Source: Lentisphaerota bacterium (GTDB lineage Bacteria; Verrucomicrobiota; Lentisphaeria; Victivallales; Victivallaceae). From it: a stretch of DNA of 35,022 nt. Both the position numbers and the translations under genes were made by a program. The stretch spans positions 1 through 35,022 of the forward strand of contig SUWA01000022.1 in assembly GCA_015061695.1 (NCBI GenBank), given 5' to 3'. Shown piece by piece: positions 27,550 to 35,022 of this stretch; the first letter of the stretch is position 1; each line of letters starts with the position of its first letter. The notes under the pieces were generated by a model. The model was not told the origin of the DNA. It did no database searches and worked only from the letters and a program-made list of their open reading frames with translations.

Positions 27550-28344
27550 ATGAAAAAAATCTTACGGAAACTTCTGTTGATGACGCTGGTTTGTTTTTGC
27601 AGTTGGCCGCTGTGCAGGGGGGATGAAGAAGTTGCGCGCAGATACCAAAAGGCGGCTAAACGTTATAAATTTGAAATCCAACCTCGCGCCAAGTTCCCGC
27701 GCCGAATAAGCGGTACCGTTGTTTCGGTAAGCGAAGTCGAACGGGAATTGGATCGTTTTTTTGAGGCACTGGACGAATTAGGTGTATCGTTTGTCAAGAA
27801 AAGCGGCCTGAAAAAAGTTATGTTTTGCCGGAATCTGACCTTGAATGGTATGCCGTGCGGCGGGGTGGCTTACGGAAATTGCATATATTTGAATGTCGGG
27901 TTCAGTAAAGAAACGGTCTACCACGAGATGTTTCATGTATTTGACTCGGCATCGGATGATAAATCGTGGCAAAAATGGAATCATAAAAAATTCCGTTACC
28001 GGGGGATAGATTTCCCGGATCGGCCTGTTTCCAAAGGCAAAAAACGCAAACTGCAGAAACATTACGCCAAATATGATTATGATTTCAACCGGGATTTTGT
28101 TTCCGACTACGCTCAAAGTAATGAAAAAGAAGACCGGGCCGAAACCTTTGCCATGATGATCGGCAACAGCCGCAAGTTTATGTCTTTGGCGCGCCGCAGT
28201 CCCGCTTTATGGGGCAAGATGCAGTATATAATTGAGTTAACTGGACGCAAATCATTGCTGGGCAAAGATTATTGGGTGAAAAAGCTGGGGTGTGAGGTTC
28301 TGCAGCATGATTACCCGTACGCCAATAAGACAAGGCGGGAGTAA
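27550..28344 (+). CDS. Exported putative zinc metallopeptidase, paralogue 1
   Basis: A 264-residue secreted protein: signal peptide MKKILRKLLLMTLVCFCSW..., then a helical region (VARRYQKAAKRYKFEI), a strand-rich part with GNCIYLNVGF, and the zincin motif YHEMFHVFD (His125, Glu126, His129). About 85 residues later SNEKEDRAETFAMM supplies acidic residues that could give the third zinc ligand, as in gluzincins with a late Glu. The next gene is a paralogue sharing all these blocks. I cannot place it in a named peptidase family. It has GGAGAGAAAG before the ATG. Likely location: periplasm or outside the cell. Confidence 0.72.
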   Translation: MKKILRKLLLMTLVCFCSWPLCRGDEEVARRYQKAAKRYKFEIQPRAKFPRRISGTVVSVSEVERELDRFFEALDELGVSFVKKSGLKKVMFCRNLTLNGMPCGGVAYGNCIYLNVGFSKETVYHEMFHVFDSASDDKSWQKWNHKKFRYRGIDFPDRPVSKGKKRKLQKHYAKYDYDFNRDFVSDYAQSNEKEDRAETFAMMIGNSRKFMSLARRSPALWGKMQYIIELTGRKSLLGKDYWVKKLGCEVLQHDYPYANKTRRE

Positions 28345-29124
28345 ATGCGTAATATCATACAACTTGCGTTGCTGGCGGTTACTTTTTTTGCGGCTGTTTT
28401 GCCGGCCGCATCAAACGATGATATTGATAAGAAATATTTGCGGGCAGCCAAACGCTACCGGTTCAAGATCAGCTCCGAGTTTGAGTTCCCGCCGGGAATA
28501 AGCGGCAAAAAAATCCCCATACAGGAACAGGAAGCTGAATTGGAGCGCTTCTTTTCTGCATTGGATAATCTTGGAGTCAAGTTTGTCCGCAAAAGCGGTT
28601 TGGAGCGGGTGATCGTCTGCCGGGATCTTACACACAATGGGTTGAAATGTGCCGGCGTTACCCTGGATGATTGCATTTATTTGAATTACGGCTTCAAAAA
28701 AAAGATCGTCTATCACGAGATGTTTCATGTGCTGGATGAAAAATACAACGATCCGGTATGGAGCAAGCTCAATCATCGCGATTTCCGTTATCTGGGCGTG
28801 GATTACCCTCATTTGCCAGTCAAAGCAGCCCGGCGCAAAGCGCTGCGCGAACATTACCGGAAAGTCAAACGTAATTTTGATGCCGACTTTGTCAGCCGTT
28901 ATGCACAAAGCAAGGAGCGTGAAGATCGGGCGGAAACCTTTGCCTGTATGGTCGATGAGGGCCCGGCCTTTTTACAGCGGGTCCAGAAAAGCACCGTGCT
29001 TTATAACAAGATGCTTTATATAATCGACATGACCGGGCGGAGTTCGTTACTGGGCCGCGACTATTGGAAAATGCGTCTGGGGCGCGATTTTACCGGTAAA
29101 AAATCACCGGCCAAACGGCGCTGA
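28345..29124 (+). CDS. Exported putative zinc metallopeptidase, paralogue 2
   Basis: A 259-residue paralogue of the upstream gene, starting on the base after its stop codon; GGGAG overlaps the end of that gene. It has a signal peptide (MRNIIQLALLAVTFFAAVLPAAS), YLRAAKRYRFKI, FVRKSGLERVIVCRDLTHNG, CIYLNYGF, the zinc motif YHEMFHVLD, then DFVSRYAQSKEREDRAETFACM and the shared tail TGRSSLLGRDYW. The C-terminus is basic and differs from copy 1. All presumed catalytic residues are kept in both copies, so this is a functional-looking tandem duplication that has diverged substantially. Substrate unknown. Confidence 0.72.
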   Translation: MRNIIQLALLAVTFFAAVLPAASNDDIDKKYLRAAKRYRFKISSEFEFPPGISGKKIPIQEQEAELERFFSALDNLGVKFVRKSGLERVIVCRDLTHNGLKCAGVTLDDCIYLNYGFKKKIVYHEMFHVLDEKYNDPVWSKLNHRDFRYLGVDYPHLPVKAARRKALREHYRKVKRNFDADFVSRYAQSKEREDRAETFACMVDEGPAFLQRVQKSTVLYNKMLYIIDMTGRSSLLGRDYWKMRLGRDFTGKKSPAKRR

Positions 29125-29141: not shown

Positions 29142-31121
29142 TTAATCCAGATCTTCGTTACCCAGAATCGCCTGTGCCGCCGATGGCATATCAATCGGGA
29201 GCGGATAAACTTCCTGCATGGAACTTTTTATTTGGGCAAACACTTCCTTGCCGGAATTTTTCTCCGGCAGGAGCGAAAACAGACTGCGGTTTTTGACGGT
29301 CATCAGCAAATTCATTGCTGCGGGAGCATTGGTCCAGCCGCTTTCCATGCACCAGGCACCCCAGAATTTATCGGAACTGCTGCCGTAATACTCCCACAAA
29401 TCAGTATCAAACGCCCGCATCCAACCGCCGGAAAATTCGGGGTGAGAGGTTGATTTTATACGGATACGGGTGATAAATTCAGCCATTTTATTGCGCAATT
29501 GACCGTAACGCTGAATATCAGTTGCCATAAACGCTTCGTGCAAACCGGCCAGCGCAAAAATCTGCGTATACACCAAGTCGCAGCATGGATCGCCAGTTTG
29601 ACTTATCAGCGAGGCCTCGGCACTGCCGTATGCTTCGTTGGAGCCCGGCGGCGGATAAAGACCGTTTTCCATAATGTGCAAAGTTTCCAGTAAGGCACCG
29701 TTTTTATCCATTCTGGCGGCTATATCGTTGATGACCGAATCAAGATACTGCCGATACTGTTGGTTTTCCGGATCGATTTGAATCATCAGAGCCAGCACCA
29801 GCGGCAGTTTGGATAATTCTGCCGAGTAGCCGTTGGTCCATGGCAAATCGGGGTAAACACTCATTATGGAGTTTATGCCGCGAGCGGCTTTGATTTTAAA
29901 TTCTTCGTCGCCAGTCCAGTGGTAAGCACAGGCAAACATGGCCAGTACCGCCGCTTCGCGGTGCGGAGTGTTGTTGACGTAATCTTCGTTGTTGTAGTGA
30001 TCCCAGTTGTGTTCGCGGAAACTGTCCGGCACGGTCAGCGCGGGGCGGTGCAGACCATTGCGCCCGGTGGTGCGCAGCAGCGACCAGATCAAACGCATAA
30101 TCAGTTTTTCCCGCTCCGGCTTGTTTTCGGCCAACGGCAACGCACACATCAGCAGCATGGCGCTTTTGGCATTGCCGCTGGCGTAGTAAGTCGGGACATT
30201 TTCATAAAAAGTAAATTGTCCGTAACAGGGATCGTGCGGATCGGTGGCCCGATTGGCCGGGTCGTCGGCAATCCGTTTGAACAAGGTTTCGGCAATATTG
30301 GCATAAGCCGGATCATCCCGGAGCCGCGCCGCCACGGCAAAGGCTCCGGCAGTTTCAAACGTACAGTCGCTGCGTTCCATGCCGCGCCACGGCTGGGCGC
30401 CATTGCGGGTGATCGTGGAGGCAAAACCTTCGGCCACCATCAGCGTATCGTTGCGGTAATAAAGTATGCTGCGTTCCAGAAAAGCAAATGCGTCGTCAAT
30501 ACAGCGATCCAATTCATCCGGCGGCAACGGTGTGTCGGGCCGCAGCGCCGGGCCGGTTTCCGGCCGGATATTATTTAACTCAATATCCAATCCCAATCGT
30601 GCAAAAAGCCAGTTGAAGAATTTGCAGCAATTCTGTGTGGGGGTGCAGCGGTTGCGCACAAAGTTGCTCAACGGCAGCAGCGAAATAATAAAATCCGGGT
30701 AATCGGGGTGTTCAAAGCATACGGGCGTATATTTTTGCGGCATTTCATAGGCCAACTGCCGGTATCCGGCCGCCCGGGCCAGCGCCAACAGAACTTTACC
30801 CGGTTTTATGGACGATGGAATGAACGGCATCCGGTGAACTGCGATCAGCGAACCATATTGCAGGTCAGCCAGATCCGTCATTGCCACCAAACGCTCGCCT
30901 TCGATCACCCGTTGGCGGCGGAAAGCGGGGGCAAACGGCATTTCGCAGTAAACTTTGAGTTGCTTGCGGCGGCAAATTTCAATCAGCTGACGATCAAACT
31001 CATTAACAGAACAAATACCATCCAAAGCAAGGAGAGAACTGCCGTCAGGCGCGTCAATAATTGCTTGAGCCAAATTTCCCGGATAATTTAACTGCGGCAG
31101 CAAACCAGCCAGATCGTTCAT
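29142..31121 (-). CDS. Unknown two-domain protein with alpha/alpha-barrel (six-hairpin) glycosidase-like region
   Basis: A 659-residue protein with no signal peptide. The first ~170 residues look like an alpha/beta domain (LLALDGICSVNEFD, LKVYCEMPFAP, KVLLALARAAG), recalling glutamine-amidotransferase/beta-galactosidase-trimerisation-like folds. From about 200 onward helices and aromatic loops (FENVPTYYASGNAKSAMLLM, HNWDHYNNEDYVNNTPHREA, LPWTNGYSAELSKLPLVLAL, FDTDLWEYYGSSSDKFWGAW) resemble six-hairpin glycosidase superfamily barrels. I cannot name the family or the catalytic acids. I chose the ATG at 31121 because GGAG lies 9 bases upstream; the ATG at 31136 contains that site. It follows trmB by about 25 bases on the same strand. 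Confidence 0.65.
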   Translation of the reverse strand: MNDLAGLLPQLNYPGNLAQAIIDAPDGSSLLALDGICSVNEFDRQLIEICRRKQLKVYCEMPFAPAFRRQRVIEGERLVAMTDLADLQYGSLIAVHRMPFIPSSIKPGKVLLALARAAGYRQLAYEMPQKYTPVCFEHPDYPDFIISLLPLSNFVRNRCTPTQNCCKFFNWLFARLGLDIELNNIRPETGPALRPDTPLPPDELDRCIDDAFAFLERSILYYRNDTLMVAEGFASTITRNGAQPWRGMERSDCTFETAGAFAVAARLRDDPAYANIAETLFKRIADDPANRATDPHDPCYGQFTFYENVPTYYASGNAKSAMLLMCALPLAENKPEREKLIMRLIWSLLRTTGRNGLHRPALTVPDSFREHNWDHYNNEDYVNNTPHREAAVLAMFACAYHWTGDEEFKIKAARGINSIMSVYPDLPWTNGYSAELSKLPLVLALMIQIDPENQQYRQYLDSVINDIAARMDKNGALLETLHIMENGLYPPPGSNEAYGSAEASLISQTGDPCCDLVYTQIFALAGLHEAFMATDIQRYGQLRNKMAEFITRIRIKSTSHPEFSGGWMRAFDTDLWEYYGSSSDKFWGAWCMESGWTNAPAAMNLLMTVKNRSLFSLLPEKNSGKEVFAQIKSSMQEVYPLPIDMPSAAQAILGNEDLD

Positions 31122-31145
31122 TATTTTGCTCTCCATGTTGATAGG

Positions 31146-31908: not shown

Positions 31909-32373
31909 ATGGAAAAGTGTGTGCTTTTTGTCTGCACCGGCAATACCTGCCGCAGTCCATTGGCAGAAGCGTACTTTAACAAGTGCGTCCGGGATTTGGC
32001 GCTTGACGGCATTGTCGGGCGTTCGGCCGGATTGTTTGCCGAACCGGGCGCACCGGCATCCGGCAACTCGCAAATGGTGGCCAAAGAAAACGGCTGCAGT
32101 CTGGATGAGTTTGCCGCCCGTTGTCTGAATAGCCAAATGGTTCAGGATGCAGCGCTGATCGTTGGTATGACCGATACTCATTGCCGGAAGATCATAAGCG
32201 TTATGCCGGAGTATGCCGGTAAAGTACACCGTCTGCTGGAATTTGACCGGGGCGGGGAAGTGGTTGATCCCTACGGCGGATCGCTTGACGATTACCGGCG
32301 ATGCTTTGAAAATATGCGCTATGCGCTGGCAAATCTGGCTGAAAACTTGAAAAATGGAAAATTATCAATATAG
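31909..32373 (+). CDS. Low-molecular-weight phosphatase, YwlE (protein-arginine phosphatase) type
   Basis: A 154-residue cysteine phosphatase. The P-loop is FVCTGNTCRSPLAEA (Cys9 nucleophile, Arg15) and the general acid is Asp of VDPYGGSLDDY near residue 123. The loop has Thr at position 13, equivalent to Thr11 of Bacillus YwlE, which selects phospho-arginine; tyrosine-specific relatives usually have Ile or Val there. The following gene contains RpiB and GlyA, the same order as ywlE-ywlF-glyA in Bacillus. GAGAG precedes the ATG at 31909 by 5 bases; an earlier in-frame TTG (31885) is less likely. The arginine phosphatase activity is an inference from one residue plus context; no McsB-type kinase is visible here. 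Confidence 0.85.
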   Translation: MEKCVLFVCTGNTCRSPLAEAYFNKCVRDLALDGIVGRSAGLFAEPGAPASGNSQMVAKENGCSLDEFAARCLNSQMVQDAALIVGMTDTHCRKIISVMPEYAGKVHRLLEFDRGGEVVDPYGGSLDDYRRCFENMRYALANLAENLKNGKLSI

Positions 32374-32419: not shown

Positions 32420-34147
32420 ATGAGTTGTTCAATTCAGGATTTTGCAACAAAAAACACTCTTCTGACCGTTGCTGTCGGAGCTGATCATGGCGGTTTTGAA
32501 GCCAAACAGACTCTGATCGCCAGACTGACTGCCAACCAGATCAATGTGGTCGATGCCGGCGCGTTCTCGCTGGAAAAGACCGATGACTATCCGGATTTTG
32601 CCGCAGTGGTGGCCGGCAAAGTTTCCCGCGGGGAAGCAGATGCCGGGATTCTGATCTGCCGTTCCGGTATCGGTATGGCGATTGCGGCCAACCGTTTTCA
32701 CGGTGTGCGCGCGGCGGTTTGCGAAGATAAGGAAACCGCGATGCTTTCGCGCCAGCACAACTGCAGCAATGTGATCGTGCTTTCCGGCGACCATCTGACT
32801 GACGATTGCCGCTTTGATATCGTTTCGACCTTTATGACCACCAAGTTTTCCGGCGAAGAACGTCATTGCCGCCGGTTGAATGAACTGGAAAAAGTTACCT
32901 ATGACGATATTGCCGCTATCCGCAATGCCGATCCGGCAATCGCCAATATCATTGATAAAGAAGCAGTCCGTCAGGCTGACGGCATTGAATTGATTGCTTC
33001 CGAAAACTTTGCCAGCTGTGCCGTACGCGCCGCGCAAGGTTCGGTTCTGACCAACAAATATGCCGAAGGTTACCCGGGCAAACGTTACTACAACGGCTGC
33101 GAATTTATTGACGAAATCGAAAGCCTGGCCATCGAACGCGCCTGCAAACTCTTCGGTGCCGAAGCTGCCAACGTTCAGCCGCACTCCGGCAGTTCTGCCA
33201 ATCAGGCGGTGTACATGGCGCTGGTCAAACCCGGCGATACCGTGCTTTCCATGAGTCTTGACCACGGCGGGCACCTGACTCACGGTCATCCGCTGAACTT
33301 CTCCGGGTCGCTCTACAACATCGTGCCTTACGGTGTCAACCGCGAAACCGAAATGATCGACTATGACGAAATCGAAAAGCTGGCGCTGGAAAACAAACCT
33401 CAGATGATTCTGGCCGGTGCCTCGGCTTATCCGCGGATCATTGATTTCCCGCGTTTGCGCGAAATCGCCGACAAAGTCGGTGCCAAACTCTTTGTTGATA
33501 TGGCGCACATTGCCGGTCTGGTCGCTGCCGGTGAACACCCCAGCCCGGTGCCGTATGCTGATGTAGTTACCACCACCACTCACAAAACCTTGCGCGGTCC
33601 CCGTGCCGGTTTGATCCTTTGCCGCGAAGAATATATCAAGGCGATCAATTCCAAGGTATTCCCCGGTATGCAGGGCGGGCCGCTTGAACACGTTATCGCG
33701 GCCAAGGCTATCTGCTTCGGCGAAGCCATGAGCGATGATTTCAAGGCTTATCAGAAGCAGATCAAACTCAACGCCAAAGTGTTGGCCGACGAGTTGACCC
33801 GCCGCGGTTTCCGTATGGTTTCCGGCGGAACGGACAATCACCTGATGCTGGTTGACTTGCGTCCCAAACAGGCGACCGGTAAGGCCGTGGCCAATGCGCT
33901 GGATATTGCCCGGATCACGGTCAACAAGAACATGATCCCCTTCGATCCGGAAAAACCGTTCGTCACCAGTGGTATCCGTATCGGTACGCCGGCTGTTACC
34001 ACCCGGGGCATGAAAGAAGATGCCATGCTCAAGATCGCTGACTTTATTGATCGCGGCGTGGCTCTGCGCGACGATGTTGAAGCGCTGAAGAAGCTGGGCG
34101 AAGAAGTCAAGGCGTTTACCGCCGACTACCCCATGCCGCAGTTCTGA
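32420..34147 (+). CDS. glyA: Fused ribose-5-phosphate isomerase B - serine hydroxymethyltransferase
   Basis: A single 575-residue frame joins two enzymes. Residues ~13-150 are Rpi[12 protein letters not shown] (His23), [17 protein letters not shown] (Cys80, the isomerase base) and [12 protein letters not shown] (His113), so ribose-5-P/ribulose-5-P isomerisation looks intact. Residues ~158-575 are a full-length [52 protein letters not shown], and [14 protein letters not shown] with the PLP lysine (Lys389). The joint (about 140-160) is a short charged linker with no internal start or stop visible. It lies 46 bases after the YwlE-type phosphatase and 22 before serS. SHMT consumes serine to make glycine and methylene-THF. 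Confidence 0.95.
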
Positions 34148-34169: not shown

Positions 34170-35022
34170 ATGATTGACTTGAGAATCCTCCGTGAAAATC
34201 CGGAGCTGATAAAGAAGAATTGCGCCCGCCGCGGCGCTGCGGTCAATGTGGATACTTTGATTGCGCTGGATGCCGAATACCGTGCTTTGTTGGGCGAAGT
34301 CGAAAATATGCGTTCGGAACGCAACCGTTTGAGCAAGGAATGTAAAGATAATCCGGCTGCCCGTGAACAGGTGCGTGAACTCAAAGAACGTCTTTCGGCC
34401 AGCGAAGGTCATCTGAACCGTCTGGAAGATAAAATGACCGCCATGGCCGGTTTTCTGCCCAACTTGCTGGCCGATGATGTGCCGGATGGGCAGACCGATG
34501 CCGATAACGTTGAACTGCGCAAAGTCGGCACGATCCCGCAGTTTGATTTCAAGGTGCGCGACCATCAGGAACTGGGCGAAATTCTGGATATAATCGACAC
34601 CCAGCGCGGCGCCAAAGTTGCCCAGTCCGGTTTTTATTACTGGAAAGGCAAGGGCGCACAGTTGGTTCAGGCACTGTTCTTCTGGACTCAGCGCGAACTG
34701 GTCAACCGCGGGTTTCAGCTGTTTATGACGCCCTGTCTGGCCAAGGAAAAAACTTTGTACGGAACCGGTTATCTGCCTTTCTTTGCTGATCAGACCTATG
34801 CGCTGAAAGATGAAGATCTGGCGCTGATCGGTACTTCGGAACAGACGCTGGTCGGGTTCCATGCCGATGAAGTGCTGGAAGGTGCGACTTTGCCGCGCTT
34901 CTACACGGCTTATACGCCCTGTTTCCGTACTGAATCCGGCAGTTACGGCAAAGCCAGCCGCGGTATTTTCCGCGTGCATCAGTTCCATAAGGTCGAACAG
35001 ATCATCTTCTGTAAACCGCAGG
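34170..35022 (+). CDS. serS: Seryl-tRNA synthetase, N-terminal part (runs off the right edge)
   Basis: The first 284 residues of a class II aminoacyl-tRNA synthetase that charges tRNA-Ser. MIDLRILRENPELIKKNCARRG is the canonical start; residues ~30-100 form the antiparallel coiled-coil arm that grips the tRNA; RGAKVAQSGFYYWKGKGAQL begins the catalytic core; YLPFFADQTYAL and LIGTSEQTLVG follow; and FRTESGSYGKASRGIFRVHQFHKVE holds motif 2. Motif 3 lies beyond the window. AGGTAAGAG precedes the ATG. Placement after SHMT puts serine consumption and serine charging in one likely operon. Confidence 0.96.
   Translation, partial: MIDLRILRENPELIKKNCARRGAAVNVDTLIALDAEYRALLGEVENMRSERNRLSKECKDNPAAREQVRELKERLSASEGHLNRLEDKMTAMAGFLPNLLADDVPDGQTDADNVELRKVGTIPQFDFKVRDHQELGEILDIIDTQRGAKVAQSGFYYWKGKGAQLVQALFFWTQRELVNRGFQLFMTPCLAKEKTLYGTGYLPFFADQTYALKDEDLALIGTSEQTLVGFHADEVLEGATLPRFYTAYTPCFRTESGSYGKASRGIFRVHQFHKVEQIIFCKPQ

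Follow-up and report, generated by a model that had tools for sequence, protein, structure and literature searches.

A two-domain RpiB-SHMT fusion protein in a Lentisphaerota bacterium: range, gene neighborhood and domain losses

The closest described relative of the protein analyzed here is Minf_1669 of Methylacidiphilum infernorum (Verrucomicrobia), which was reported as a low-molecular-weight (LMW) phosphatase/RpiB/SHMT protein (Hou et al., 2008, Biol Direct 3:26, PMC2474590). No follow-up papers on the RpiB-SHMT fusion were found after this report in the open-licence literature. Both domains also have unfused counterparts in the PDB, RpiB in 6fxs and 1o1x and SHMT in 3pgy and 1kkj, which the two halves of our protein resemble in sequence and fold. 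Finally, separate rpiB and glyA genes accompanied by an LMW phosphatase (LMWPc/YwlE) gene occur in Bacillota, Omnitrophota, Nitrospirota and other phyla with the same gene order as that described here, but with separate reading frames.

We analyzed a 35,022-nucleotide stretch of a Lentisphaerota genome (contig SUWA01000022.1; hereafter the window). As in Minf_1669, RpiB and SHMT are present in one polypeptide; the LMW phosphatase domain that Minf_1669 also carries is in the window a separate gene located 46 bp upstream, and some relatives have all three domains. The window protein is a two-domain relative of the already described Minf_1669 kind, and what is added here is its range, a series of domain losses and a case in an Acidobacteriota group, not a new kind of protein. 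The fusion noted in the preliminary description of this DNA is not supported as a novelty, given that the architecture has been in print since 2008 and is general in the lineage.

The fusion gene and its neighbors

Table 1. Features of the fusion locus, in window positions.
Feature	Position	Strand	Basis
LMWPc / YwlE-like low-molecular-weight phosphatase	31909..32373	+	PF01451, 99.8 bits; ends 46 bp before fusion start
rpiB-glyA fusion gene, 575 aa	32420..34147	+	single ORF, ATG 32420, stop 34147
RpiB (ribose-5-phosphate isomerase B) domain, residues 17-155	32468..32884	+	PF02502 (LacAB_rpiB)
Linker, residues ~156-167 (~12 residues)	32885..32920	+	Pfam boundaries and sequence
SHMT (serine hydroxymethyltransferase) domain, residues 168-543	32921..34048	+	PF00464
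serS (seryl-tRNA synthetase)	34170..35021	+	PF02403, PF00587; 22 bp downstream of fusion, cut by window end

As the preliminary description had proposed, RpiB and SHMT form a true fusion in one uninterrupted frame (Table 1). Translation of this frame gives no internal stops, and both domains are recognized by Pfam (RpiB at 153 bits versus a cut-off of 24.7; SHMT at 560 bits versus 27) as well as by NCBIfam (RpiB NF004051, 156.7 versus 135; SHMT NF000586, 641 versus 335). The start codon is supported by the matching N-terminal beginnings of congeners. The linker contains neither ATG nor GTG codons in the window; many relatives do have a start codon near the joint, and among the cases with an ATG most lack a clear upstream ribosome-binding site as judged by eye. 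The gap between the RpiB and SHMT models is 8-13 residues in most fused relatives, and its sequence is poorly conserved across the phylum.

Both halves look catalytically intact as judged from conserved residues. Alignment to E. coli RpiB places the catalytic set of the RpiB half at D22/H23, C80, H113, R148 and R152, which covers the family's catalytic Cys and His as well as its two phosphate-binding arginines (R148/R152), and K389 is the PLP lysine of the SHMT half. The positions that had been given earlier for H23, C80, H113 and K389 are correct, and these residues along with D22 are invariant in a 28-row alignment. Among 122 fused relatives the RpiB catalytic positions are conserved in 117-121. 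An AlphaFold2 model of the fusion has a mean pLDDT of 90.5 and a pTM of 0.84, and its SHMT half is predicted to have the SHMT fold, with Foldseek target TM-scores of ~0.95, and up to 0.96, against PDB SHMT structures. PDB sequence matches were found for both halves, with the RpiB half matching the solved RpiB 6fxs at an E value of 2e-35.

The gene upstream of the fusion is YwlE-like in its sequence features, as had been suggested before. Its P-loop, CTGNTCRS, has a Thr at the specificity position, a residue characteristic of arginine phosphatases, YwlE and PtpB among them (PMC8001253). The arginine kinase family PF00217 is present in the window's own genome and in 20 of 21 relatives. Downstream, serS follows the fusion in all tested loci of the same family and genus and was not seen in loci tested outside the order, so that this adjacency is a trait of the window's family only. 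Elsewhere in the window, 27550-28344 and 28345-29124 (plus strand) code for tandem paralogues that are 49% identical. In each, the N-terminus is hydrophobic and an HExxH-like motif (YHEMFHV) is present, and both match PF15890 (putative zinc metallo-peptidase) weakly, one just over and one just under the cut-off. A 664-aa protein coded at 29142-31136 (minus strand) has no Pfam match at E 0.001.

Range of the fusion in the order and phylum

A full-length, one-frame RpiB-SHMT is present in 54 of the 61 genomes analyzed from genus to order level; four of the others contain fragments and three have no match. In the phylum sample 284 of 289 genomes exhibited some match, and identity across divergent fused lineages is 52-77%. 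Some of the phylum matches were reported with in-frame stops, which could have meant a split at the joint. Translation of 96 loci, a set that includes some regions fetched twice, instead showed RpiB and SHMT sharing a frame with no stop at the junction, and we read the reported stops as run-over of the alignments at their ends. The fusion is old, is general in the window's lineage and is common to most of the phylum sampled.

These results also bear on whether the single frame was produced by assembly or sequencing, either through deletion of a stop or through the joining of two genes. The window genome is fragmented (133 contigs) and a second RpiB-SHMT copy is present on another of its contigs, both of which could be taken as signs of such an error. 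However, the same open frame recurs in independent genomes throughout the order and across the phylum, including the closed one-contig genomes G014 and G037, and this recurrence refutes an artefact, for which we see practically no chance. The misassembly at the joint against which the preliminary description had cautioned is thus not borne out.

The second copy (L002, contig C15 of genome G000) is truncated, has the same neighbors and is 79% identical to the window copy at the DNA level. Gene duplication was set aside as its explanation because this identity equals the distance of other species in the genus. Most probably this contig belongs to a sibling species that was binned together with the window genome, an old duplication being the less likely alternative. 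A separate observation concerns L122 and L150 (G224), where the two halves, RpiB and SHMT, overlap but are read in different frames in a manner resembling a one-base slip at the joint; either an assembly error or a real frameshift would account for this overlap.

Gene clusters, architectures and origin of the fusion

We next consider a cluster survey in which one genome per species was scanned and loci were classified by profiles. Among the matches listed, unfused adjacent rpiB and glyA genes are found in Omnitrophota, Bacillota, Nitrospirota, Thermodesulfobacteriota, Alphaproteobacteria and Actinomycetota, and in several of these phyla LMWPc is located upstream of the pair. Such separate neighbors provide raw material for a fusion, which fits the conserved neighborhood suggested earlier. 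The specific analogy with the Bacillus ywlE-rpiB-glyA genes is roughly correct: in Bacillota loci the three genes are near neighbors with separate ORFs, but they are not strictly side by side, with gaps of several hundred bases to >1 kb. As part of the overall explanation given below, we consider it likely that the fusion derives from an old LMWPc-rpiB-glyA neighbor cluster.

Within the window's phylum several architectures coexist. Besides the window form, in which a separate LMWPc gene lies just upstream of RpiB-SHMT, there are one-frame LMWPc-RpiB-SHMT forms (for example L043, L045, L059-L064, L066, L080, L157-L159, L166 and L200), proteins with LMWPc followed by a decayed RpiB and SHMT (L151, L153), LMWPc-SHMT proteins (L133, L152, L154-L156, L187, L188) and separate neighbors (L131, L134). 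Continuity of the reading frame from LMWPc into RpiB is by itself no proof of a single protein, and seven candidate three-domain loci (L053, L065, L069, L075, L076, L078, L088) were rejected because their long frames contain no same-frame LMWPc domain upstream. We also placed these forms on an SHMT tree, a quick search that leaves the deepest branches and the choice between gain and loss unsettled. On this tree the window's class is fused in all sampled members but one (L122, the apparent frame slip). Two more groups of the phylum can be told apart, one of them large and made up of fused members throughout and the other mixed, and three-domain forms are scattered. The class-level family f11, in which SHMT is longer and RpiB is separate, was left out of the tree.

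A further case is found outside this phylum. L182, from a metagenome-assembled genome titled Acidobacteria, contains a 587-aa frame that spans both RpiB and SHMT, and L261 (G459) is also read through, up to the contig end. The domain pair, its order and the single frame are identical to those of the window; the linker is longer than the window's and holds the former glyA start region. Since the L182 SHMT groups with Acidobacteriota SHMTs on the quick tree (SH-aLRT 98), this fusion is apparently independent of that in the window's phylum, with the sequences suggesting that the fusion arose at least twice. In close relatives from L182's order the two genes are in phase but separated by one or two stops, and in several of them a GGAGG-like site precedes the start of glyA. 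Stop loss is thus a visible route to fusion, given the in-phase stops of these relatives and the read-through in L182 and L261.

The occurrence of RpiB-SHMT in two phylum-level groups, the scattered three-domain forms and the retention of LMWPc-SHMT after RpiB loss could also be read as a true functional module of LMWPc, RpiB and SHMT whose members are repeatedly brought together in a single polypeptide, with the phosphatase controlling or repairing metabolic enzymes. The phosphatase might then remove arginine phosphate or mend proteins glycated by ribose-5-phosphate. The latter activity is reportedly known from work on the mammalian LMW phosphatase, and a literature search for a link between LMW phosphatase and ribulosamine repair found nothing useful. 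The P-loop specificity residue is often Ile, Val or Ser in the LMWPc of relatives, indicating that phosphatase specificity is no fixed part of a module. We consider the reading as a true functional module unlikely.

Isomerase complement and function of the fused enzyme

RpiA (PF06026) was detected in none of the 61 order genomes under conditions where RpiA-bearing control genomes were detected, and these genomes generally have no second strong RpiB match. The RpiA absence suggests that the cell probably depends mainly or solely on the RpiB half for ribose-5-phosphate isomerization. It also bears on whether RpiB has instead become mainly structural or acquired a non-isomerase role, for example on another sugar phosphate, leaving SHMT as the sole house-keeping activity. 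Several features fit such a change. The RpiB half falls below the cut-off of the stricter rpiB equivalog TIGR01120 (124.1 versus 138.65). Among congeners it evolves faster than the SHMT half, with dN/dS values of 0.12-0.23 versus 0.03-0.07. Moreover, residue 67, which is located just after the catalytic Cys and is Gly in E. coli RpiB, is Arg or Thr in most fused proteins, giving a cysteine motif of CRS or CTT where CGT and CGS are commonest in stand-alone RpiB. This replacement might bear on RpiB specificity and is a point against our main reading as well. However, the dN/dS values of congeners point to purifying selection on both halves, the RpiB catalytic set is complete and the 61 order genomes have neither RpiA nor, generally, a second strong RpiB, and a loss of isomerase function is very unlikely on this evidence.

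Loss of the domain in other parts of the phylum follows a pattern. Where the RpiB part of the SHMT gene is decayed (G122, G090) or missing (G166, G069, G086, G173), the genome contains a separate RpiB elsewhere. G281, which has LMWPc-SHMT and no RpiB that we could find, is the sole RpiA carrier among 51 phylum genomes. The exception to this compensation, which also counts against our main reading, is G301, where LMWPc and SHMT genes are adjacent but no RpiB and no RpiA were detected. At this locus (L140) LMWPc and SHMT overlap directly, and a frame recognized by eye as glucose-6-phosphate-dehydrogenase-like follows them. The simplest reading of these sequences is that isomerase activity is what preserves the fused RpiB, which would be dispensable once replaced, and this would mean that the SHMT half has no need of RpiB. 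The decay or loss of RpiB where another isomerase exists thus argues against channelling or obligatory regulation, while a mild gain from fixed stoichiometry may be compatible with it.

We therefore favor a bifunctional house-keeping enzyme that arose from fused neighbor genes, in which co-expression of two independent enzymes is a better explanation than channelling, and we regard this as the likely explanation overall. The RpiB half would interconvert ribulose-5-phosphate and ribose-5-phosphate, and the SHMT half would convert serine to glycine and 5,10-methylene-THF. These reactions share no intermediate, so that the likely benefit is modest. The products of RpiB and SHMT both feed purine synthesis, and the gain would be a fixed 1:1 synthesis of the two enzymes, with each half predicted to act independently through its own homodimer, in a probably co-transcribed operon and presumably with no channelling.

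The shared destination of the products can also be taken to favor a regulatory device, in which pentose phosphate at RpiB or folate or serine at SHMT tunes the other half and thereby matches the supply of ribose-5-phosphate to that of glycine and one-carbon units used in making purines. A tie between pentose phosphate supply and one-carbon/glycine flux had also been suggested in the preliminary description, and the repeated decay or loss of RpiB argues against such a coupling being obligatory. A passage from Hou et al., 2008 (PMC2474590) has been cited in its favor, and the long conservation of the fusion, its mostly short linker and its second appearance in the Acidobacteriota-group lineage are congruent with it. 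Nevertheless, RpiB decays or disappears while SHMT persists, other lineages retain separate genes, the linker sequence is poorly conserved and the two enzymes are without a shared ligand, making such a device rather unlikely. The persistence of the fusion at 52-77% identity is longer than a purely neutral accident might last, which speaks against co-expression as the whole account, and selection for physical linkage is possible given the at least two apparent origins.

The weight of these findings is modest as they concern an ordinary pair of house-keeping enzymes. For annotation there is a practical warning, in that searches of this order for stand-alone rpiB, rpiA or glyA would falsely call steps missing. 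For the family, the cluster is seen in stages that comprise separate genes in phase, the two-domain fusion, the three-domain fusion, a decaying middle domain and a middle domain that is gone, and this series lends itself to testing whether fusing unlinked pathway steps gives a catalytic benefit.
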